A stretch of 64,000 nucleotides of DNA from an uncultured Saprospiraceae bacterium. Lineage in GTDB: Bacteria > Bacteroidota > Bacteroidia > Chitinophagales > Saprospiraceae. Below the pieces are notes generated by a model. That model had not been told where the DNA came from, searched no databases, and saw nothing but the letters and a program-made list of their open reading frames with translations. Of this stretch, positions 47,143 to 56,568 are shown piece after piece. The stretch spans positions 53,475-117,474 of the forward strand of contig CALISO010000027.1 of the NCBI GenBank assembly GCA_938041445.1, given 5' to 3'. How positions within the stretch are numbered: position 1 is the stretch's first letter; every line of letters begins with the position of its first letter. Position numbers and translations under genes: made by a program.

Positions 47143-48258
47143 ATGAAAATCGGCGTACCTAAAGAAATCAAAACAAATGAAAATCGTGTGGCACTTACAC
47201 CAGCTGGTGTCATTGAATTGGTCAAGAGAGGACATGAAGTAAAAGTCCTTAAGACTGCCGGTCTTGGATCAGGGTATTCTGATCAGGAGTATGTCGATGC
47301 AGGTGCAAGTCTCGCTGATTCAGCAAAAGAAGTATTTGACTATGCCGATATGATAGTGAAAGTCAAAGAACCTATCCAAGAGGAGTATGAATTGATTAGA
47401 GATAATCAACTTGTATTTACATATTTTCACTTTGCTTCTTACGAGCCGTTAACTAATGCAATGATTAAGAGTAATTCTGTCTGCTTAGCTTATGAGACTG
47501 TAACTGCTCCTAATGGGTCGTTACCACTATTAGTACCAATGTCAGAGGTTGCAGGAAGAATGTCAGTCCAAGAAGGAGCTAAGTATCTTGAAAAGCCAAT
47601 GGGTGGACGAGGCGTATTACTCGGTGGAGTACCTGGAGTCCCACCATCAAAAGTACTCATCCTAGGAGGTGGAATCGTCGGTACTCAAGCTGGTCTCATG
47701 GCTTGTGGATTAGGTGCTGATGTAATCATTGCTGATATTAACTTATCAAGATTACGTTACCTAGAAGAAATGATGCCAGCTAACGTCTCTACAATCTTCT
47801 CTAATGAATATAATATCCGTAAGCTACTTCCAGAAGTAGACTTGATTATCGGTGCAGTCTTGATACCAGGAGCGAAAGCGCCAAGTCTTATCACCAGAGA
47901 TATGCTTAAAGAGATGAAGCCTGGAACAGTCGTCGTCGATGTTGCTGTAGACCAAGGCGGTTGTATCGAAACTTGTAAGCCAACAACGCATACTGATCCG
48001 ACTTTTGTTATAGATGGGGTATTGCATTATTGTGTTGCCAATATGCCTGGAGCGGTACCATACACTTCTACCATCGCATTGACTAATGCAACATTACCTT
48101 ATATGATCCAACTTGCTAACAAAGGATGGAAGAAGGCTTGTAACGAAAATGCTGAGTTAGTACCTGGTCTGAATATTGTCAATGGTAAAGTTGTCCATAA
48201 AGGGGTATCTGATGCGTTTGGATTGGACTACGTGCCTGTGGAAGATGTATTAGCATAG
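47143..48258 (+). CDS. ald: Alanine dehydrogenase
   Basis: MKIGVPKEIKTNENRVALTPAGVIELVKRGHEV, VKVKEP, GGVPGVPPSKVLILGGGIVGTQAGLMACGLGADV, VDVAVDQGGCIET, NMPGAVPYTSTIALTNATLPY. Confidence 0.97.
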   Translation: MKIGVPKEIKTNENRVALTPAGVIELVKRGHEVKVLKTAGLGSGYSDQEYVDAGASLADSAKEVFDYADMIVKVKEPIQEEYELIRDNQLVFTYFHFASYEPLTNAMIKSNSVCLAYETVTAPNGSLPLLVPMSEVAGRMSVQEGAKYLEKPMGGRGVLLGGVPGVPPSKVLILGGGIVGTQAGLMACGLGADVIIADINLSRLRYLEEMMPANVSTIFSNEYNIRKLLPEVDLIIGAVLIPGAKAPSLITRDMLKEMKPGTVVVDVAVDQGGCIETCKPTTHTDPTFVIDGVLHYCVANMPGAVPYTSTIALTNATLPYMIQLANKGWKKACNENAELVPGLNIVNGKVVHKGVSDAFGLDYVPVEDVLA

Positions 48259-48291
48259 TAATCTTACTTAATCGGGTGTAAATTGATTCTC

Positions 48292-49005
48292 TTATCCCAG
48301 CATAAGGTCTTTAGTTAAGCTGTAATGTTCTGCTGTATAGTCTCGATTCTGAATATACAAGGTTAATGATTCTGTGATTTCTTTTTTATTCTCAGTTGAT
48401 AACTTATATATACTAGCGTACGGTTCTGAATGTTCATACGATCTTATTAAGGTGTGTTTATGGAGGCTAAGGTTAGAGTCTTCAATGATAGCTCTAACTC
48501 TCTTATCTTCAGATAACGGAAGAATCATGGTAAATACTCCACCTCTCACTAATAACCTTTCTACCAATTGCATCAGCTTAGGTATGAAATCTCCAGTGCT
48601 GTGCTTAGCTACTGAGAGGCTAGCATCTTGTGGCAAAGTTCCTCCAACAAAGTAAGGTGGATTACAAACGATTAAGTCAAACTTCTGCTTGTAGTCGTAT
48701 TCAAAGCAATCGCCATTTATGATGTCAACTCTATGTGCAAATGGAGATTGTTTAGCATTATACTGAGCTTGAGCAGCTGAGTTTTTATCAATCTCGATTC
48801 CTGTGATGTGAAGAGTAGGGTATTTTTGCGCAAGTATCAGAGCAATCATTCCTGTACCAGTACCTATATCGAGAGCAGTCTTAGCGTGAGGTGTATCTAC
48901 GCTACAACCTAAAAGTACACCATCAGTATTAACCTTGAAGGTCGATAAATGATGGTGTACTTCGAATTGTTTAAATCTAAAAGGTTTTGGGTCTTTGTAA
49001 TCCAA
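48292..49005 (-). CDS. tRNA1(Val) (adenine(37)-N6)-methyltransferase-like SAM-dependent methyltransferase
   Basis: FRFKQFEVHHHLSTFKVNTDGVLLG, ALDIGTGTGMIALILAQKYP, DLIVCNPPYFVGG (NPPY). Confidence 0.88.
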   Translation of the reverse strand: MDYKDPKPFRFKQFEVHHHLSTFKVNTDGVLLGCSVDTPHAKTALDIGTGTGMIALILAQKYPTLHITGIEIDKNSAAQAQYNAKQSPFAHRVDIINGDCFEYDYKQKFDLIVCNPPYFVGGTLPQDASLSVAKHSTGDFIPKLMQLVERLLVRGGVFTMILPLSEDKRVRAIIEDSNLSLHKHTLIRSYEHSEPYASIYKLSTENKKEITESLTLYIQNRDYTAEHYSLTKDLMLG

Positions 49006-49016
49006 ACTTAGCTGGA

Positions 49017-51062
49017 CTACTGTATGACAACGTCATCTACTCGTATTGTATTCGTGAGTCCACTTGGGCCACTACCAGTATACTTAAATGCGATGTGACC
49101 TGTACCACTGAAGCCACTGATGTCAGTATCTCCAGATTGGATCCAATCATTATCTGGTGAGTTACCATCAGCGATCGTAGCATTTATCGTTTCCCATGTT
49201 GCCGCATCTGCATCACCAGTATAGTTGCCAGAGTACAGTACCTCAAAGCCACCATGTGTATAAAACGCTTGGGCAGATCTAAAGGATAAGGTAGTCACTT
49301 CATCAAAGTCTAGCTCAGGTGTCACAAGGTATGTCTCCATATTATCTGCTTCATCATTAAATGCAGTTGCTTGTGCATATAGGTTATTATCAAACTCTCT
49401 GAATTGCCAAGTCCGTTCTCCTTGTGTAGCGACATTATTCCATCCTGTGAGACTGACTGGGTCAAAGTTTACACCTGATTCGAAATCTTCATCGATCTCT
49501 CCTTCAGGATCTTCTCCACCTCCACCACCGTTATCTACATCACATCTTGTGCCTGTCATACTGAATTCATTTGGGTCTCTCAAGATGATTTGAAAGTCAC
49601 CATTGAAAGCACTAAACACGCCTATAAATGTCCCGTTTCCTTCAGGTAGTGGAGTAGAAGTATAGTCACTGAAGCTACTTGTAAATACAAGGAGATTGTT
49701 TCCTTCACAATCTTGCAATTCATAAAAACCGTTACTTCCGTCACTTGCATAGGTAGCAGGAAGGTCGTCTTCCATAAACTGTACATCACTTATTTGTACT
49801 ATTGAATTGATATCATTCTCACTCAGAGATTCAAGTGATATAGATTTTGGTGTAATGGATCCAGAGTTGCCAGTAGAAAGTAGGACTGAACTTGCAACTT
49901 CTATGATGCCAACTTGATTGCCATCATTAGTCCCTAGCTGAGCTACTCCACCAAATTCGCCAATATACAGATTGCCAAGTACGACATAAACTTCACTACC
50001 TATTGGGAATTCTGAAAATGCTGAGTCGTCATTTATTCTTATCTCAACACCTCCTGTCTCATCTTGTACAATGACTTTTCTGAAGAAGTTGCCGTTACTA
50101 TTATTGGCAATGACTGTTCCTTTGATAAACTTATCATTAGGCAATGAAGTAGCAGTCCCAAATTCAAGGAGGTCTTTTACATCTGCAACAGACATTAGGT
50201 CTGCTTCAGTAATGTCGTTAGGATCGATATCAACACCTCCACCTGTTGATCCATCACATCTAGCACCATCAAATTGTACATCACCAAGATCTCTGATAAC
50301 GAGTTGGTATGTGTCACCAAACCTACCTAAGATAGCATAGATTGTACCGTTACCGCTGGGGATTTCCGTATTGGCAAATTCACTGAACCCACTAGATCTT
50401 AATACGAGTTCTACTCCATCACAATTTACAATATTTCTATTTTCTGTTTGGAAAATATTCTGAGATGGGATTGCAGTTGCATAAGTAGACCCTAGTTCTG
50501 ATGATGCAAATTCTACATTGTTAATTTGCACAAGCATATTGAGTAGTGGGTTGCCGACATCGCCAATAAGAATCTCTGTAGGTTGTACAGATACATTGAA
50601 AGCGCCAGGAGTGAGGACTGCATCGACTAATGCAGAAGGAATCCGAGACACTTCTCCATCGACTGGCGCCATACCAATTTGTGGTAATTCAGCAAAGTCT
50701 CCTAGATAGAGGTCATCTAAATTTATATATACTTCTCTTCCTACATAGTAAGTGTTGAATAGATCAGTTTCATCGATGATGATCGCCATACCTCCGGTAT
50801 CATCTTGAATAAATAATGTCTTAAAAATATTACCACTTCTATCACTACCAACAACGACACCTCGCAGGTATGTTCCTTCTTCCAGCTTATATGGATTGTT
50901 AGGAGAGAAGTTTTCCATAATAGATGCAATGGTAACAACTGCTTCATCTGGGATATCAACGGTAGGACCATCGAGAGGTGGTACATCAAATTCCTGATCT
51001 ACACATTGTGTAAATGAAAGGCCTAGCAATAATAGGAATCCGAGTAATCTCAAATTTTTCAT
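49017..51062 (-). CDS. DUF5689-type OB-fold-like lipoprotein with two repeat domains and a C-terminal choice-of-anchor J-like domain
   Basis: Lipobox LLGLSFTQCVD; twice-repeated YLRGVVVGSDRSGNIFKTLFIQDDTGGMAIII / FIKGTVIANNSNGNFFRKVIVQDETGGVEIRI modules; start moved to ATG 51062. Confidence 0.8.
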   Translation of the reverse strand: MKNLRLLGFLLLLGLSFTQCVDQEFDVPPLDGPTVDIPDEAVVTIASIMENFSPNNPYKLEEGTYLRGVVVGSDRSGNIFKTLFIQDDTGGMAIIIDETDLFNTYYVGREVYINLDDLYLGDFAELPQIGMAPVDGEVSRIPSALVDAVLTPGAFNVSVQPTEILIGDVGNPLLNMLVQINNVEFASSELGSTYATAIPSQNIFQTENRNIVNCDGVELVLRSSGFSEFANTEIPSGNGTIYAILGRFGDTYQLVIRDLGDVQFDGARCDGSTGGGVDIDPNDITEADLMSVADVKDLLEFGTATSLPNDKFIKGTVIANNSNGNFFRKVIVQDETGGVEIRINDDSAFSEFPIGSEVYVVLGNLYIGEFGGVAQLGTNDGNQVGIIEVASSVLLSTGNSGSITPKSISLESLSENDINSIVQISDVQFMEDDLPATYASDGSNGFYELQDCEGNNLLVFTSSFSDYTSTPLPEGNGTFIGVFSAFNGDFQIILRDPNEFSMTGTRCDVDNGGGGGEDPEGEIDEDFESGVNFDPVSLTGWNNVATQGERTWQFREFDNNLYAQATAFNDEADNMETYLVTPELDFDEVTTLSFRSAQAFYTHGGFEVLYSGNYTGDADAATWETINATIADGNSPDNDWIQSGDTDISGFSGTGHIAFKYTGSGPSGLTNTIRVDDVVIQ

Positions 51063-51093
51063 ATTAGATATATGTTTAATGTGATTTGTCAAT

Positions 51094-53940
51094 TTAGTTA
51101 AAGCTCACGCTTAATGTGATAAAGTATGTAGTCCCGTAAGCATAGTAGTATCTAGGCGGGAATAGATTTGTTAATTGCAGATTTTCGTTCGCATCGAACT
51201 CTGATCTATAACGTAGTCTCAACTGTTCAAATCCACCACTTCTAAATGTGTTGTTCAAGATATTATTGACACTACCGAGCAATTGTACATACATCTTATC
51301 AGTCTTCCAAGACTTTCTAAAAAATGCATCAAATGTGATGGCATTGGGATATTCTTCTTGACCGTAAACATCTTCATAGAGTGAATTAGTAACATCATTA
51401 CCGAATACAAACTGCTCTAACTGTTCAGGTGTAATAGACGTAGCATCTATGGCATCTAGATTATAAAGTTGTGGGCCGATAATCTGTGCTACACGATCTT
51501 CAAGTCTTCTTACAGGACTCATACTAATGTAGTTCTTGTCAAAGTAATTTGCACCTAGCGATACCGACCAAAACTTTTTGTTATTGTAAGTAATCTCAGC
51601 TGTCAATGCTGTCTGCGGGCCATTTGATACAAATCTATTCTTGAAATAAGTAATACCTAAATCTTGGACATCTACAAGGTCATCAACCGCAACCTGGACG
51701 AATGGATTGTTAGTATACCGGTGATCACCTAATGCGATACCTGCTGCGGCATCGATTGATGGTGTTAGTCTTGCATCGATACCTACTTCGATACCCATAT
51801 GTCTTGTGTCGATATCTCGGACAATCATATTTCCAAACTCGTTGAGCTCATCAAAGTAAACATTTCTCGTTTCGAATTGATCACGAATCTCAGAGTAGTA
51901 AGCAGTGGCTCTTGCTTTGAAACCTGGGAATCTCGCAATGTAGCCTATTTCTCCAGAGGTAACCTTCTGTACATCAATTCCGTCTATCAAGGTTTCTCTA
52001 GTACGTGCTGTCACATAACTATTACGTGAGTAAGGTGCTTCAGTAAGATATGCTGCTGAGGCATAAAAGTAGTTTCGTCCATTAAGCTTGTACGTAGCAC
52101 CTGCTTTCACTGTTCCTGTTGTGTAGGATTTTCTTTCACCTTTGCCAAGGCTATTGTCTGGAAATCTACCATTTTGGAAGATTCCATCTCTCACAAAAGT
52201 TGTGTAATCTACTGCACCAGCAATATAGAAATCTAGCCTATTTAATGCGTATTCCAAACTTGACCAAGCATTAGTGTTGATGTGTTGCATATGATAGTGG
52301 TAACCAAATAAATCACCTTCATAAAGGATGTTATTTGGTTCGAGTACATTGTTCTGTTTAGCAGGGTCGACAAGTACATTAAGGTCTCCACTTTCATCAG
52401 CGAAGTTATCCCAGTCTACTGAAAAGTCAGCTCCCATCAAGTCATCGACAATCTTGAAGTTGTCAGTGTTTTCCATCGTGAAGTTGACACCTGAATTAGT
52501 CGTGATTTTATCTGACCAAGCGGTATTTACTGTTGTATTGAAAAATAACTTAGTTGGATCGTACCGTTGTTCTTGAATTTTGTAAGCAGCAAATTTTCCA
52601 GTTATATCATTTCCAGCAATACCGTCTACACTTTGGATAGTTTCGATTCTGTTAGCATTGATTTCATACATTGATTCAAGGTCTAGCTGAAGCAAATCTG
52701 GATTGCTGCTTAGGTGCTCTGCTGCGAGTTCTCGGACTTCTGGTGAATCTGAAAAGCTTGGTAGATTACGATAGTAGTCTGGTCTTGGATCTGGAGCATC
52801 GTACCAGTCAATACCCGAGCTTCCATCCTTACCTACTTGTAGACCTATGGTAGAGGTGATGCTACTTCTATTAATTCTGTTGTCATAACGAAGCAAGGCA
52901 GTGTGAAGATTATTTCTATACTGTCTAGGGTTACGAACTTCACCATTAAGATATCCCCAGTTAGGATTGTAAAAGTTATCACCAACAAGATCATAAGCCT
53001 CTTGAGTAGAAGCAGAACTTCTTCCTCTCACTGTATTTACCGAGAATATAGAAAGTCCTATACTATGATTGTCATCAAATATCTTTTCTACTCCAAAGAA
53101 TCCTGAGAATCCATCATAAAATGTTCCTTGAACAAATCCTGTTTCAGACCATCTTCGGGAGACTGATGCTCCAAATGCCCATCCATTTTCACTGACTCCA
53201 CTTCCGTAGGTGAGCATCGCTCGATTTCTGTAGCTGGCATTAGCAGCACTATATGATGCACGGACTTGCTCTCTGAACCTTGATGCTCTTAAGTCAATAT
53301 TGGAAGCACCTGCGATATTGCCTATCGTCCAAGAACCAGGTGCAAGACCTTCTGTCTCATCTCTAGATCTGAACATGTCATTGAGACCTCCCCAAGCACC
53401 GAAAAATGTCCTGCCACTACTGAGGCTATTGAAGTAAACACCGTTGATATACACTTCATTAGCAGTATTGTCATAGCCTCTGATTCTAAACCTTGCTGCT
53501 CTGAAGTTAAATGCTGCGACATTATTAAATGGATCACGACTTGCGGTCAAAAGACTTGCAACTTCCGAATTACTATCATCGAGAATCTCTAGATCAGTAA
53601 TGACTGCAATATCATTCTCGACAGATAGATTTGCCCCTTCAACCTGAGCATATCTAGATTCATATCGCTTTCCGAAATCTGCAGCTGTAATTGTGAATTC
53701 ATTAATGCCATACTCCTCCGTAATGACTCTCATTGTGTAAGCACCTGGCTTGAGAGATGGGAATCGGTATACTCCCGAGGCATTTGTTGAGGCGAATAAT
53801 TCTTGATTGACGACTTCTACGTCTGCACCTACAATAGGCTGATTGCTCACTTGGTCTAGTAGAAGACCTTCAAACTGTGAAAATGCTGACGTTATTGAAA
53901 TCAAAAAACCGGCAAAAACAAAAATTAATCTATTCCTCAT
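51094..53940 (-). CDS. TonB-dependent receptor with carboxypeptidase-regulatory-like N-terminal domain
   Basis: Signal peptide MRNRLIFVFAGFLISITSAFSQ; FEGLLLDQVSNQPIVGADVEV; plug-like region FRIRGYDNTANEVYINGVYFN; C-terminal beta-barrel ending FITLSVSFN. Start moved to ATG 53940. Confidence 0.87.
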   Translation of the reverse strand: MRNRLIFVFAGFLISITSAFSQFEGLLLDQVSNQPIVGADVEVVNQELFASTNASGVYRFPSLKPGAYTMRVITEEYGINEFTITAADFGKRYESRYAQVEGANLSVENDIAVITDLEILDDSNSEVASLLTASRDPFNNVAAFNFRAARFRIRGYDNTANEVYINGVYFNSLSSGRTFFGAWGGLNDMFRSRDETEGLAPGSWTIGNIAGASNIDLRASRFREQVRASYSAANASYRNRAMLTYGSGVSENGWAFGASVSRRWSETGFVQGTFYDGFSGFFGVEKIFDDNHSIGLSIFSVNTVRGRSSASTQEAYDLVGDNFYNPNWGYLNGEVRNPRQYRNNLHTALLRYDNRINRSSITSTIGLQVGKDGSSGIDWYDAPDPRPDYYRNLPSFSDSPEVRELAAEHLSSNPDLLQLDLESMYEINANRIETIQSVDGIAGNDITGKFAAYKIQEQRYDPTKLFFNTTVNTAWSDKITTNSGVNFTMENTDNFKIVDDLMGADFSVDWDNFADESGDLNVLVDPAKQNNVLEPNNILYEGDLFGYHYHMQHINTNAWSSLEYALNRLDFYIAGAVDYTTFVRDGIFQNGRFPDNSLGKGERKSYTTGTVKAGATYKLNGRNYFYASAAYLTEAPYSRNSYVTARTRETLIDGIDVQKVTSGEIGYIARFPGFKARATAYYSEIRDQFETRNVYFDELNEFGNMIVRDIDTRHMGIEVGIDARLTPSIDAAAGIALGDHRYTNNPFVQVAVDDLVDVQDLGITYFKNRFVSNGPQTALTAEITYNNKKFWSVSLGANYFDKNYISMSPVRRLEDRVAQIIGPQLYNLDAIDATSITPEQLEQFVFGNDVTNSLYEDVYGQEEYPNAITFDAFFRKSWKTDKMYVQLLGSVNNILNNTFRSGGFEQLRLRYRSEFDANENLQLTNLFPPRYYYAYGTTYFITLSVSFN

Positions 53941-54022
53941 GTTGTTATGGCTATATAATGCGAATTTACCCTTTTCTTTAGCACTTGAATACACATTGAC
54001 AACAAAACTATATTATTGTAAA

Positions 54023-55066
54023 GTGAAACATATCATAACCACCTTTTTCCTCCTAATCCTTCTCTTTCAAAGCCAAGTATCAGTTGCTCAAGATGAAGGA
54101 TATAAGATTGCAGCTGTTGGCTTTTATAACTTTGAGAACCTGTTTGACACCTTAGATACGCCAAATGTTCGCGATAAGGAATTTACCCCGAATGGATACA
54201 AGGCTTGGACGAGTGAGAAATACAATGAAAAGCTTGGTAATCTTGCCTATGTCATCGATAATATGGCATCTGATAAGATCAATTCTGGTATTTCAATACT
54301 TGGTGTTTCAGAAATAGAGAATGTTACTGTATTAGAAGATCTTGTAGCTCACCCGACGATTAAGAACAAGGACTATGGTATTGTCCATCATGACTCTCCT
54401 GATGAGAGAGGCATAGATGTAGCTTTGCTCTATCGTAAGAACCATTTCAAAGTGACTAATACCAAAGACTACTTTGTGGATATTACGATTGGTGTTGACA
54501 CAAATTATACTCGGGATGTCTTATTGGTTTCTGGTCTACTGGATGGAGAACAGATGCACTTCTTAGTTAATCACTGGCCAAGTAGAAGTGGTGGAGAGAA
54601 GCGATCTGAAGCCGGAAGAGGTAAGGCTGCTGATGTCGCAAAAATGGTAATTGACTCCCTTAATCAAGTAGAAGACAATCCTAAAATTATCCTAATGGGT
54701 GACCTTAATGATAACCCAACAAATAAAAGTTTGACGATGCACCTGCGTGCAAATAATAAACTCAATAAGGTCAAAGACAATGAAATGTATAACCCTATGG
54801 CAGAATTGTTCAGGGCAGGACATGGATCAAATGCTTGGCGAGATACTTGGAGTTTGTTTGATCAGATATTAGTCTCAGGAGTATTGACAGAAAAAAAGAC
54901 CGAAGGTTTCAAGTTCTACAAGGCTGAAATCTACAGTGAGAAATTTCTTAAACAATCTATTGGTCAATTCAAAGGATATCCATTTCGGACTTTTGTGGGT
55001 AATGCCTATCAAGGTGGATACAGCGATCACTTTCCTGTTTATATCTATTTGACTAAAAAGGTATAG
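54023..55066 (+). CDS. Secreted endonuclease/exonuclease/phosphatase (EEP) family protein
   Basis: AVGFYNFENLFDT, GVSEIEN, DVALLYRK, FLVNHWPSRSGGE, ILMGDLNDNPTN, GYSDHFPVYIYL; GTG 54023 followed by a signal peptide. The ORF-track start at 53843 lies inside the divergent receptor gene. Confidence 0.9.
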   Translation: MKHIITTFFLLILLFQSQVSVAQDEGYKIAAVGFYNFENLFDTLDTPNVRDKEFTPNGYKAWTSEKYNEKLGNLAYVIDNMASDKINSGISILGVSEIENVTVLEDLVAHPTIKNKDYGIVHHDSPDERGIDVALLYRKNHFKVTNTKDYFVDITIGVDTNYTRDVLLVSGLLDGEQMHFLVNHWPSRSGGEKRSEAGRGKAADVAKMVIDSLNQVEDNPKIILMGDLNDNPTNKSLTMHLRANNKLNKVKDNEMYNPMAELFRAGHGSNAWRDTWSLFDQILVSGVLTEKKTEGFKFYKAEIYSEKFLKQSIGQFKGYPFRTFVGNAYQGGYSDHFPVYIYLTKKV

Positions 55067-55263
55067 TTACACTTTCTTTCATATCAAGATAGGAATCCAT
55101 TCATTACTTCTACCAAAGATGTGAGCATATCTTCACAATTTACAAGAATGAAATAGCAGAAGCAAAATCGAAGTGATTTAGCACAGCTTCTAACGAATCT
55201 ACAATGCCTTCCTAAGATTTATTTATCTAAAATATCGTAATATGTATCTTTACCATAGCAACT

Positions 55264-56568
55264 ATGCTATTAGAAAGATACCCAATACAACTCAGCAAAG
55301 AATTTTCCGATATCCTCCAACATATCGAAGGGACGGACGACTCTATGCTGGTCACTGGTAAGGCTGGTACAGGGAAATCTACCTTGCTCTCAATCTTAAG
55401 AAGAACGACACAGAAACGAGTCGCTGTTGTTGCTCCTACAGGTATCGCTGCTCTCAATGTCAAGGGACAAACCATCCATAGCTTCTTTAAGTTTCCACCT
55501 AAGATGATGATGGCATCAGATATCAAGATGTCTAAGAATCCTAAATTGTATCGTAACATAGATGTCTTAGTCATTGACGAGATATCGATGGTTCGTGCTG
55601 ACTTGCTTGATAACATTGATCGATTCCTAAGAATCAATCGAAAGAATGCTGATCCATTCGGTGGCGTTCAAGTTATCTTTTTTGGTGATATGTTTCAATT
55701 GCCACCAGTAGTATCATCAGCCTTCGAGAAGCAAGTATTCAGAGACAAATATGACTCACCCTACTTTTTCAGTGCCAACGTGATGCAAGAAGTCGATTTT
55801 CCACTCATAGAACTGCATACCGTGTATCGTCAGAGTGACCGACACTTTGTAGGAATCCTTGACCGAGTCCGTACCAATACCTTAGATCAAGATGATCTCG
55901 ATACTCTCAATGCTCAAGTAGGTAATCATCTTTCCGATGAAGACCTTTTTATCACGTTGACGAGCAGTAATGCATCAGCAATGGCAATTAATCAAAGTAG
56001 TCTGGCAAAGTTGGATGGAGACGCATTCAAGTACCCAGCGCAGGTTGAAGGTGTCTTCCAAGCAAGTCGATACCCTGCGGATCAACTTCTCCAACTCAAA
56101 GAAGGAGCTCAAGTGATCTTTGTCAAAAATGATAGTGAACGCCGATGGGTCAATGGAACGCTAGGTAAGGTGACTTCGATTTCAAAGGAAGATATAGTTG
56201 TATCTATTACAGATCCTAATGGTCGAGCAACTTCTGTCACGATTTTTCAAGAAGAGTGGGAGATACTTAAGTACAAGGTTGATGATAAAAATCCTAAGAA
56301 GTTCACCACAGAAGTAGTCGGAGTCTTTAGGCAATATCCCATCAAATTAGCCTGGGCAATCACAATACACAAGAGTCAAGGACAGACATTTGATAAAGTG
56401 AGAATAGACTTAGGTAGGGGAGCATTCGAATTTGGTCAGACCTATGTCGCGCTAAGTCGTTGTCGTACTCTTGAAGGAATAGAACTTTCACGACCGCTCA
56501 ATCCAAGAGATATTATGTCCGACAATCGTATAGCTGAGTACTATCAATTGAAGCGGTTTTATTGGTAA
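55264..56568 (+). CDS. PIF1-like / UvrD_C_2 domain ATP-dependent DNA helicase (AAA family)
   Basis: VTGKAGTGKSTLLSILRR, VVAPTGIAALNVKGQTIHSFF, VLVIDEISMVRADLLD, VIFFGDMFQLPPV, LAWAITIHKSQGQTFDKVRIDLG, QTYVALSRCRTLEGI. Confidence 0.92.
   Translation: MLLERYPIQLSKEFSDILQHIEGTDDSMLVTGKAGTGKSTLLSILRRTTQKRVAVVAPTGIAALNVKGQTIHSFFKFPPKMMMASDIKMSKNPKLYRNIDVLVIDEISMVRADLLDNIDRFLRINRKNADPFGGVQVIFFGDMFQLPPVVSSAFEKQVFRDKYDSPYFFSANVMQEVDFPLIELHTVYRQSDRHFVGILDRVRTNTLDQDDLDTLNAQVGNHLSDEDLFITLTSSNASAMAINQSSLAKLDGDAFKYPAQVEGVFQASRYPADQLLQLKEGAQVIFVKNDSERRWVNGTLGKVTSISKEDIVVSITDPNGRATSVTIFQEEWEILKYKVDDKNPKKFTTEVVGVFRQYPIKLAWAITIHKSQGQTFDKVRIDLGRGAFEFGQTYVALSRCRTLEGIELSRPLNPRDIMSDNRIAEYYQLKRFYW

Follow-up and report, generated by a model that had tools for sequence, protein, structure and literature searches.

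A locus of three genes in the genome of an uncultured Saprospiraceae bacterium probably specifies the outer-membrane portion of a pilus-independent, Riemerella-type DNA-uptake machine for natural transformation. The genes lie within a stretch of 64,000 nucleotides, hereafter the window (GenBank assembly GCA_938041445.1, contig CALISO010000027.1, positions 53,475 to 117,474 of the forward strand), and encode a surface lipoprotein with two DUF5689 domains, a TonB-dependent outer-membrane transporter (TBDT; hereafter the receptor), and an exported enzyme of the EEP superfamily. In the mechanism that we favor, the lipoprotein, with its predicted OB folds and an adhesin-like domain, would capture extracellular double-stranded DNA (dsDNA) and dock on the receptor, which, powered by TonB/ExbBD, would move the DNA to the periplasm; the EEP enzyme would cut the DNA, by a nick at entry or by degradation of one strand, and a membrane-anchored HhH protein and ComEC, both encoded elsewhere in the genome, would hand the single strand to DprA. 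In window positions, the locus consists of the following features.

49017..51062, minus strand: surface lipoprotein of 681 amino acids (aa), the orthologue of RA0C_RS04920; a signal peptide and lipobox Cys precede two DUF5689 domains, and a choice-of-anchor J domain lies at the C terminus.
49023..49493, minus strand: choice-of-anchor J/cleaved-adhesin domain (MAM-like jelly-roll); NF038128 E 7e-21, with Foldseek matches to gingipain K1-K3 adhesin domains.
49569..50198, minus strand: DUF5689 domain 2, modelled as OB-fold type; PF18942 E 1.5e-55, model pLDDT mostly >90 here, with HIN-200-dsDNA and RPA as top Foldseek matches.
50277..50942, minus strand: DUF5689 domain 1, membrane-proximal; PF18942 E 1.3e-62.
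51094..53940, minus strand: TBDT of 948 aa, by predicted fold; orthologue of RA0C_RS04915.
53695..53871, minus strand: carboxypeptidase-regulatory-like domain (CarboxypepD_reg) at the receptor N terminus; PF13620 E 2.7e-9.
53941..54022, no strand: divergent intergenic region of 82 bp, likely a shared promoter region; the divergence is conserved.
54023..55066, plus strand: exported EEP-superfamily enzyme (Exo_endo_phos_3) of 347 aa; PF19580 E 6.7e-121, by gene order the orthologue of RA0C_RS04910.

All three open reading frames are uninterrupted at these coordinates. The lipoprotein starts at about 51062 with a signal peptide ending in LSFTQC, its lipobox Cys shows no variation in 35 homologues, and a profile search recovers its two PF18942 domains with E 6.9e-118. 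The receptor starts at 53940, and Pfam finds CarboxypepD_reg as its sole domain and no plug or barrel family. The EEP gene has a GTG start at 54023 and encodes a signal peptide and a full-length PF19580 domain, in which 35 sequences show no variation at N36, E97, H184, D227, N229, D335, and H336 and the conserved block contains the motifs GDLND and SDHFPV; we take these invariant positions to be the catalytic ones, as general knowledge of the superfamily would have it. An earlier sequence-based proposal (the original prediction) described the locus as a SusD-less system for acquiring extracellular nucleic acid or phosphoesters, and it was right about the division into surface lipoprotein, transporter, and enzyme, the 31-nt gap between the receptor and DUF5689 genes, the EEP gene 82 bp away on the plus strand, and the signal peptide and motifs of the EEP enzyme.

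The arrangement of a TBDT with CarboxypepD_reg and a downstream lipoprotein is reminiscent of SusC/SusD, and SusCD importers likewise combine, in one operon, a TonB-dependent barrel carrying an N-terminal CarboxypepD_reg with a surface lipoprotein. However, this lipoprotein is of the DUF5689/anchor J type and matches no SusD family, an EEP enzyme is found instead of glycoside hydrolases, and the adjacent genes scanned (47143-56568) encode neither SusD nor a glycoside hydrolase or other CAZyme. A classical SusCD-type polysaccharide utilization locus, which the original prediction had also set aside, was rejected on this domain content and is extremely improbable. On the same strand, a trmN6-like tRNA methyltransferase gene (window 48292-49005) begins 12 bp past the lipoprotein gene; co-transcription of the two is possible, and the trmN6-like gene is not a conserved neighbor at other loci.

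The function of the locus is suggested by its orthology to a gene pair in the duck bacterium Riemerella anatipestifer, a link that the original prediction lacked and that changed the interpretation. In this species, a transposon screen for genes of natural transformation, published in the only open-access paper found to name DUF5689, reported that RA0C_RS04920 (DUF5689 plus DUF5017/anchor J) and RA0C_RS04915 (a carboxypeptidase-regulatory-like outer-membrane protein) form one operon, and that markerless deletion of either gene abolished transformation (detection limit ~4e-10, wild type 5.4e-5) (PMC8459023). In the model of its authors, RS04920 would bind dsDNA and RS04915 would serve as the conduit (PMC8459023). 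In BLAST comparisons the window and Riemerella receptors are 28% identical over 948 columns (E 6e-114) and the lipoproteins 27% over 430 aa (E 1.7e-35); the EEP proteins share 38% identity (E 3e-83). The two loci are alike in the order and strand of the TBDT and DUF5689/anchor J genes and in the divergent upstream EEP gene. They differ in the number of DUF5689 domains in the lipoprotein, two in the window and one in Riemerella, and in that comEC is on another contig here and near the trio in Riemerella; the organisms belong to different orders of the same class. By orthology, the receptor and lipoprotein would thus act in DNA uptake in the Saprospiraceae bacterium as well.

The EEP gene also has a counterpart at the Riemerella locus. 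The gene order in Riemerella genome G297, whose receptor is 93% identical to that of R. anatipestifer CCUG25054 (NZ_QXHU01000005.1), is ComEC, a gene for 145 aa, a gene for 542 aa, EEP, receptor, and DUF5689 lipoprotein. Since this order fits the locus tags from RS04895 (ComEC) to RS04915 and RS04920, the EEP gene is RS04910 by position. RS04910 appears in the screen paper only as the upstream gene of a qRT-PCR control, and no mutant was reported (PMC8459023). In the open-access literature, preprints not included, the only later work found on the receptor/lipoprotein pair or on the EEP enzyme in transformation consists of Riemerella papers. RA0C_1534 (PMC6557517) was considered as a possible link and rejected as an unrelated sigma factor.

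Conservation of the trio was assessed in 248 genomes of the phylum, in a class sample (40 receptor-positive and 22 receptor-negative genomes), in 199 genomes of the same order (85 receptor-positive, 114 receptor-negative), and in a neighborhood survey of 60 loci (40 from the phylum sample and 20 from Weeksellaceae) with about 19 kb read around each. Full-length receptor orthologues occur in 40 of the 248 phylum genomes, every one in the window's class, and a clear score gap separates them from paralogues (E<1e-40 over the full length versus at most ~1e-26). The lipoprotein gene is directly downstream of the receptor gene on the same strand in 59 of the 60 loci and the EEP gene adjoins the receptor in 43, nearly always divergently, whereas the next commonest neighbor is found at only 14; thus the trio stays together while its flanks scramble. 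In a large sampled genus that is probably Flavobacterium, the EEP gene is mostly non-adjacent, and in many cases it and the receptor gene are 17-58 kb apart on one contig. Within the genome of the window, the single PF19580 protein and both DUF5689 hits are at this locus, and since the arrangement also recurs across families, the locus is far from a chance assembly. The conserved association of DUF5689, TonB receptor, and EEP that had been predicted is therefore borne out by gene neighborhoods, and also by co-occurrence.

An EEP gene is present in 40/40 receptor-positive versus 3/22 receptor-negative genomes of the class sample, and in 84/85 versus 66/114 of the order sample, where the single receptor-positive genome lacking an EEP gene is 77% complete and has its receptor at a contig end. 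The two genes are adjacent in 49 of the 85 receptor-positive genomes of the order and divergent in all 49. Within the window's own family, the EEP gene is found in all 25 receptor-positive and none of the 12 receptor-negative genomes, and one genus holds both states. Fisher tests of co-occurrence give p of ~1e-9 to 1e-13, values that ignore phylogeny and overstate independence. Receptor and EEP are nevertheless kept or lost together in several lineages, and a single event does not explain why both are repeatedly absent. In the EEP tree, receptor-linked enzymes fall in one subclade (92/83) with a few unlinked copies inside, and three of four second copies, a set mostly lacking a signal peptide, fall outside. 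The unit extends beyond the order of Riemerella, over several families of one class.

Variants of the locus were also seen. A second EEP copy of ~320 aa without a signal peptide, from a separate clade, lies a few kb from the trio at L042:14933-15901, L045:5429-6397, and L068:12463-13437. Several Flavobacteriaceae-like genomes carry a second, related receptor of ~880-920 aa near the EEP/receptor pair (L042:3745-6375, L045:16900-18999, L050:1642-4284, L059:3974-6736, L184:4707-7445); in one genome (G134, locus L184), the true receptor and the DUF5689 gene are gone and the EEP gene remains near the receptor paralogue. Two adjacent DUF5689 genes follow the receptor at L039:4783-7634, L048:6642-8679, and L052:6093-8008, and the proteins differ in how many DUF5689 domains they carry. 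In other classes of the phylum, three loci (L187, L196, L199) have a PF19580 gene in conserved order beside exbB/exbD-like genes, two of them also with polA; no receptor or DUF5689 gene is nearby, which hints at another role for PF19580 enzymes.

This genome also encodes other proteins that are essential for transformation in Riemerella: ComEC, DprA, a DUF1343 protein, and a three-HhH, membrane-anchored protein resembling RA0C_RS02645. The ComEC and three-HhH genes are ~1.4 kb apart on the same strand, with two small lipoprotein-like genes between them (contig C13, L176:6110-10808). In this genome, two relatives, and Riemerella, ComEC has the DUF4131 and Competence domains but no Lactamase_B, for which a role in degrading one strand has been proposed in Bacillus subtilis (PMC6299819). 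If that scheme holds, such a ComEC needs a separate strand-degrading nuclease, for which the EEP enzyme is a natural candidate, unlike systems in which EndA or the Lactamase_B domain of ComEC degrades the strand. The authors of the Riemerella screen stated that the single-strand-making step is unknown (PMC8459023). Compared with uptake through a type IV pilus, ComEA, and ComEC in Vibrio and Neisseria, the genome is similar in having an HhH DNA receptor, ComEC, and DprA, and differs in that the outer-membrane step apparently proceeds via a TonB-dependent receptor. Since ComEC, DprA, and the HhH protein are near-universal, their presence is weakly informative on competence, and co-occurrence with the HhH protein, present in 186 of the 199 order genomes, was dropped as an independent competence test because it does not discriminate.

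One may argue that the trio captures and cuts extracellular DNA to import oligonucleotides or nucleotides as a source of phosphorus, nitrogen, or carbon rather than as transforming DNA. Secreted nucleases are common in Bacteroidota (PMC11495043), the EEP enzyme is exported and placed at the receptor, co-loss of the trio while the HhH protein stays would also fit a role outside transformation, and the Riemerella pair could have been co-opted. However, Riemerella requires the orthologous pair for transformation, and among the 60 loci the conserved neighbors are the trio alone, with no inner-membrane transporter or nucleotidase consistently linked. In addition, transformation of R. anatipestifer falls without phosphate (PMC8383284), although the readout there is transformation and not expression of the trio. 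Scavenging as the sole function is thus unlikely. Of the alternatives in the original prediction, nucleic acid stands as the likely substrate, given the orthology with a transformation-essential pair, whereas acquisition of nutrients or phosphate is unsupported. A TonB-energized DNA-uptake port would serve transformation and possibly scavenging too, as both functions could share it.

Structure prediction offers clues to how such a port may be built. The lipoprotein model has a pLDDT of 82.7 (~60-80 in the first DUF5689 repeat, mostly >90 in the rest), and the best Foldseek matches of its DUF5689 part in the PDB are the p204 HINab-dsDNA complex (E 1.8e-8), IFI16-type HIN domains, and the OB folds of RPA70 and BRCA2 bound to single-stranded DNA. 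The expectation that DUF5689 repeats are OB folds is thus upheld at the level of models, with dsDNA-binding HIN-200 structures as the top match. The C-terminal domain model matches gingipain cleaved-adhesin and MAM domains. The receptor model (pLDDT 82, pTM 0.77) has the predicted TBDT fold of a plug and a barrel of ~22 strands, and its Foldseek matches are PqqU (E 1.4e-26) and also Fiu, OprC, FhuA, and FecA. In PDB sequence searches, neither the single proteins nor the lipoprotein profile found a match; the EEP profile gave only weak ones (E 0.01 or worse), including TDP2 and a 562-aa two-domain EEP protein.

As the nearest folds to the receptor are small-ligand receptors such as PqqU, Fiu, and OprC, the pair might instead take up a metal chelate, a peptide, or a cofactor, with transformation lost in Riemerella indirectly through starvation or an envelope change. 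Transformation in Riemerella does depend on iron, peptone, and phosphate (PMC8383284), and an effect on virulence and antigenicity is reported for M949_1556, a gene of this lipoprotein family. The published phenotypes, however, fit such an indirect effect poorly: the pair deletions fall below the detection limit, by more than 4 logs, like those of comEC, dprA, and recA, whereas the other affected markerless mutants were only 6-128 fold down (PMC8459023). The Riemerella locus is also beside comEC, and DUF5689 has a predicted OB-type fold. A different ligand is therefore distinctly unlikely, more so than scavenging. Transformation is poor in the tonBA and tonBB mutants of R. anatipestifer, of which the tonBA mutant shows no iron deficiency; the authors suggested a nutrient effect (PMC8383284), and a TonB-driven receptor would lead one to expect the same phenotype. 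That the pair is essential and that transformation depends on TonB are published findings for another species; on the DNA-uptake reading, DNA would be the ligand in the Saprospiraceae bacterium too, and would pass directly through the receptor without a pilus.

Several observations count against this reading. Flavobacterium johnsoniae, which has the homologues, could not be transformed in the conditions used (PMC8459023, PMC7965970), and no phenotype is known for the organism of the window. The presence of the HhH protein does not track that of the trio. With a net charge of -79 (family median pI 4.9), the lipoprotein is strongly acidic, which is unusual for a DNA binder, and its TM-scores against HIN-200 are low over the whole chain (0.15-0.24 for the two-domain match), so an OB-type topology is supported but not a shared binding mode. 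The Riemerella transposon screen had no insertion in the EEP gene (PMC8459023). By a Poisson estimate, 3,000 insertions in 2.16 Mb have a 19% chance of missing a 1.2-kb gene, and this absence is therefore weak evidence against an essential role. The EEP family is also found without the receptor, in 66 of the 114 receptor-negative genomes of the order and in other classes, there in unrelated contexts; hence it has further functions or does not serve uptake exclusively.

The EEP superfamily includes phosphatases. The enzyme might thus be a lipid, inositol, or polyphosphate phosphatase, or another phosphoesterase, that acts on the envelope and shares only the divergent promoter, with the pair alone importing DNA. 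Its absence from the screen hits and the varied contexts of receptor-less PF19580 genes, near polA or exbBD-like genes in other classes, would agree with this. Against it stand the co-occurrence and divergent adjacency with the receptor in the order sample and the clean split in the window's own family, which includes a genus with both states; the weak profile similarity is to EEP phosphodiesterases (TDP2 and the two-domain protein), and most EEP homologues are basic (median pI 8.5). We consider the phosphatase explanation rather doubtful, though the least improbable of the alternatives. Like secreted EEP/DNase I-like nucleases, the enzyme belongs to the EEP fold family and has the catalytic residues, and the solved 562-aa EEP-domain protein is among its weak profile matches; unlike them, it is a single EEP domain of a Bacteroidota subfamily with no fused OB domain, the OB folds being in the partner lipoprotein. 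We regard the enzyme as a putative nuclease and a new candidate third component of the uptake machine. The fullest version of the proposal, a three-part, TonB-powered, pilus-independent dsDNA importer in several families of one class, with an OB-fold lipoprotein, a DNA-conducting receptor, and a dedicated EEP nuclease serving a nuclease-less ComEC, is tentative and somewhat short of probable.

For the passage of DNA through the outer membrane in Bacteroidota, the 2021 Riemerella screen named a receptor and a lipoprotein. The present analysis adds the EEP enzyme (RA0C_RS04910) as a named candidate for the single-strand-making step, offers in the predicted OB-type fold a reason for the lipoprotein to bind DNA, and links the tonB phenotype to the receptor. 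If the proposal is true, DNA would join the substrates imported by TonB-dependent transport, and the capacity of this large bacterial group for horizontal gene transfer could become readable from genomes.
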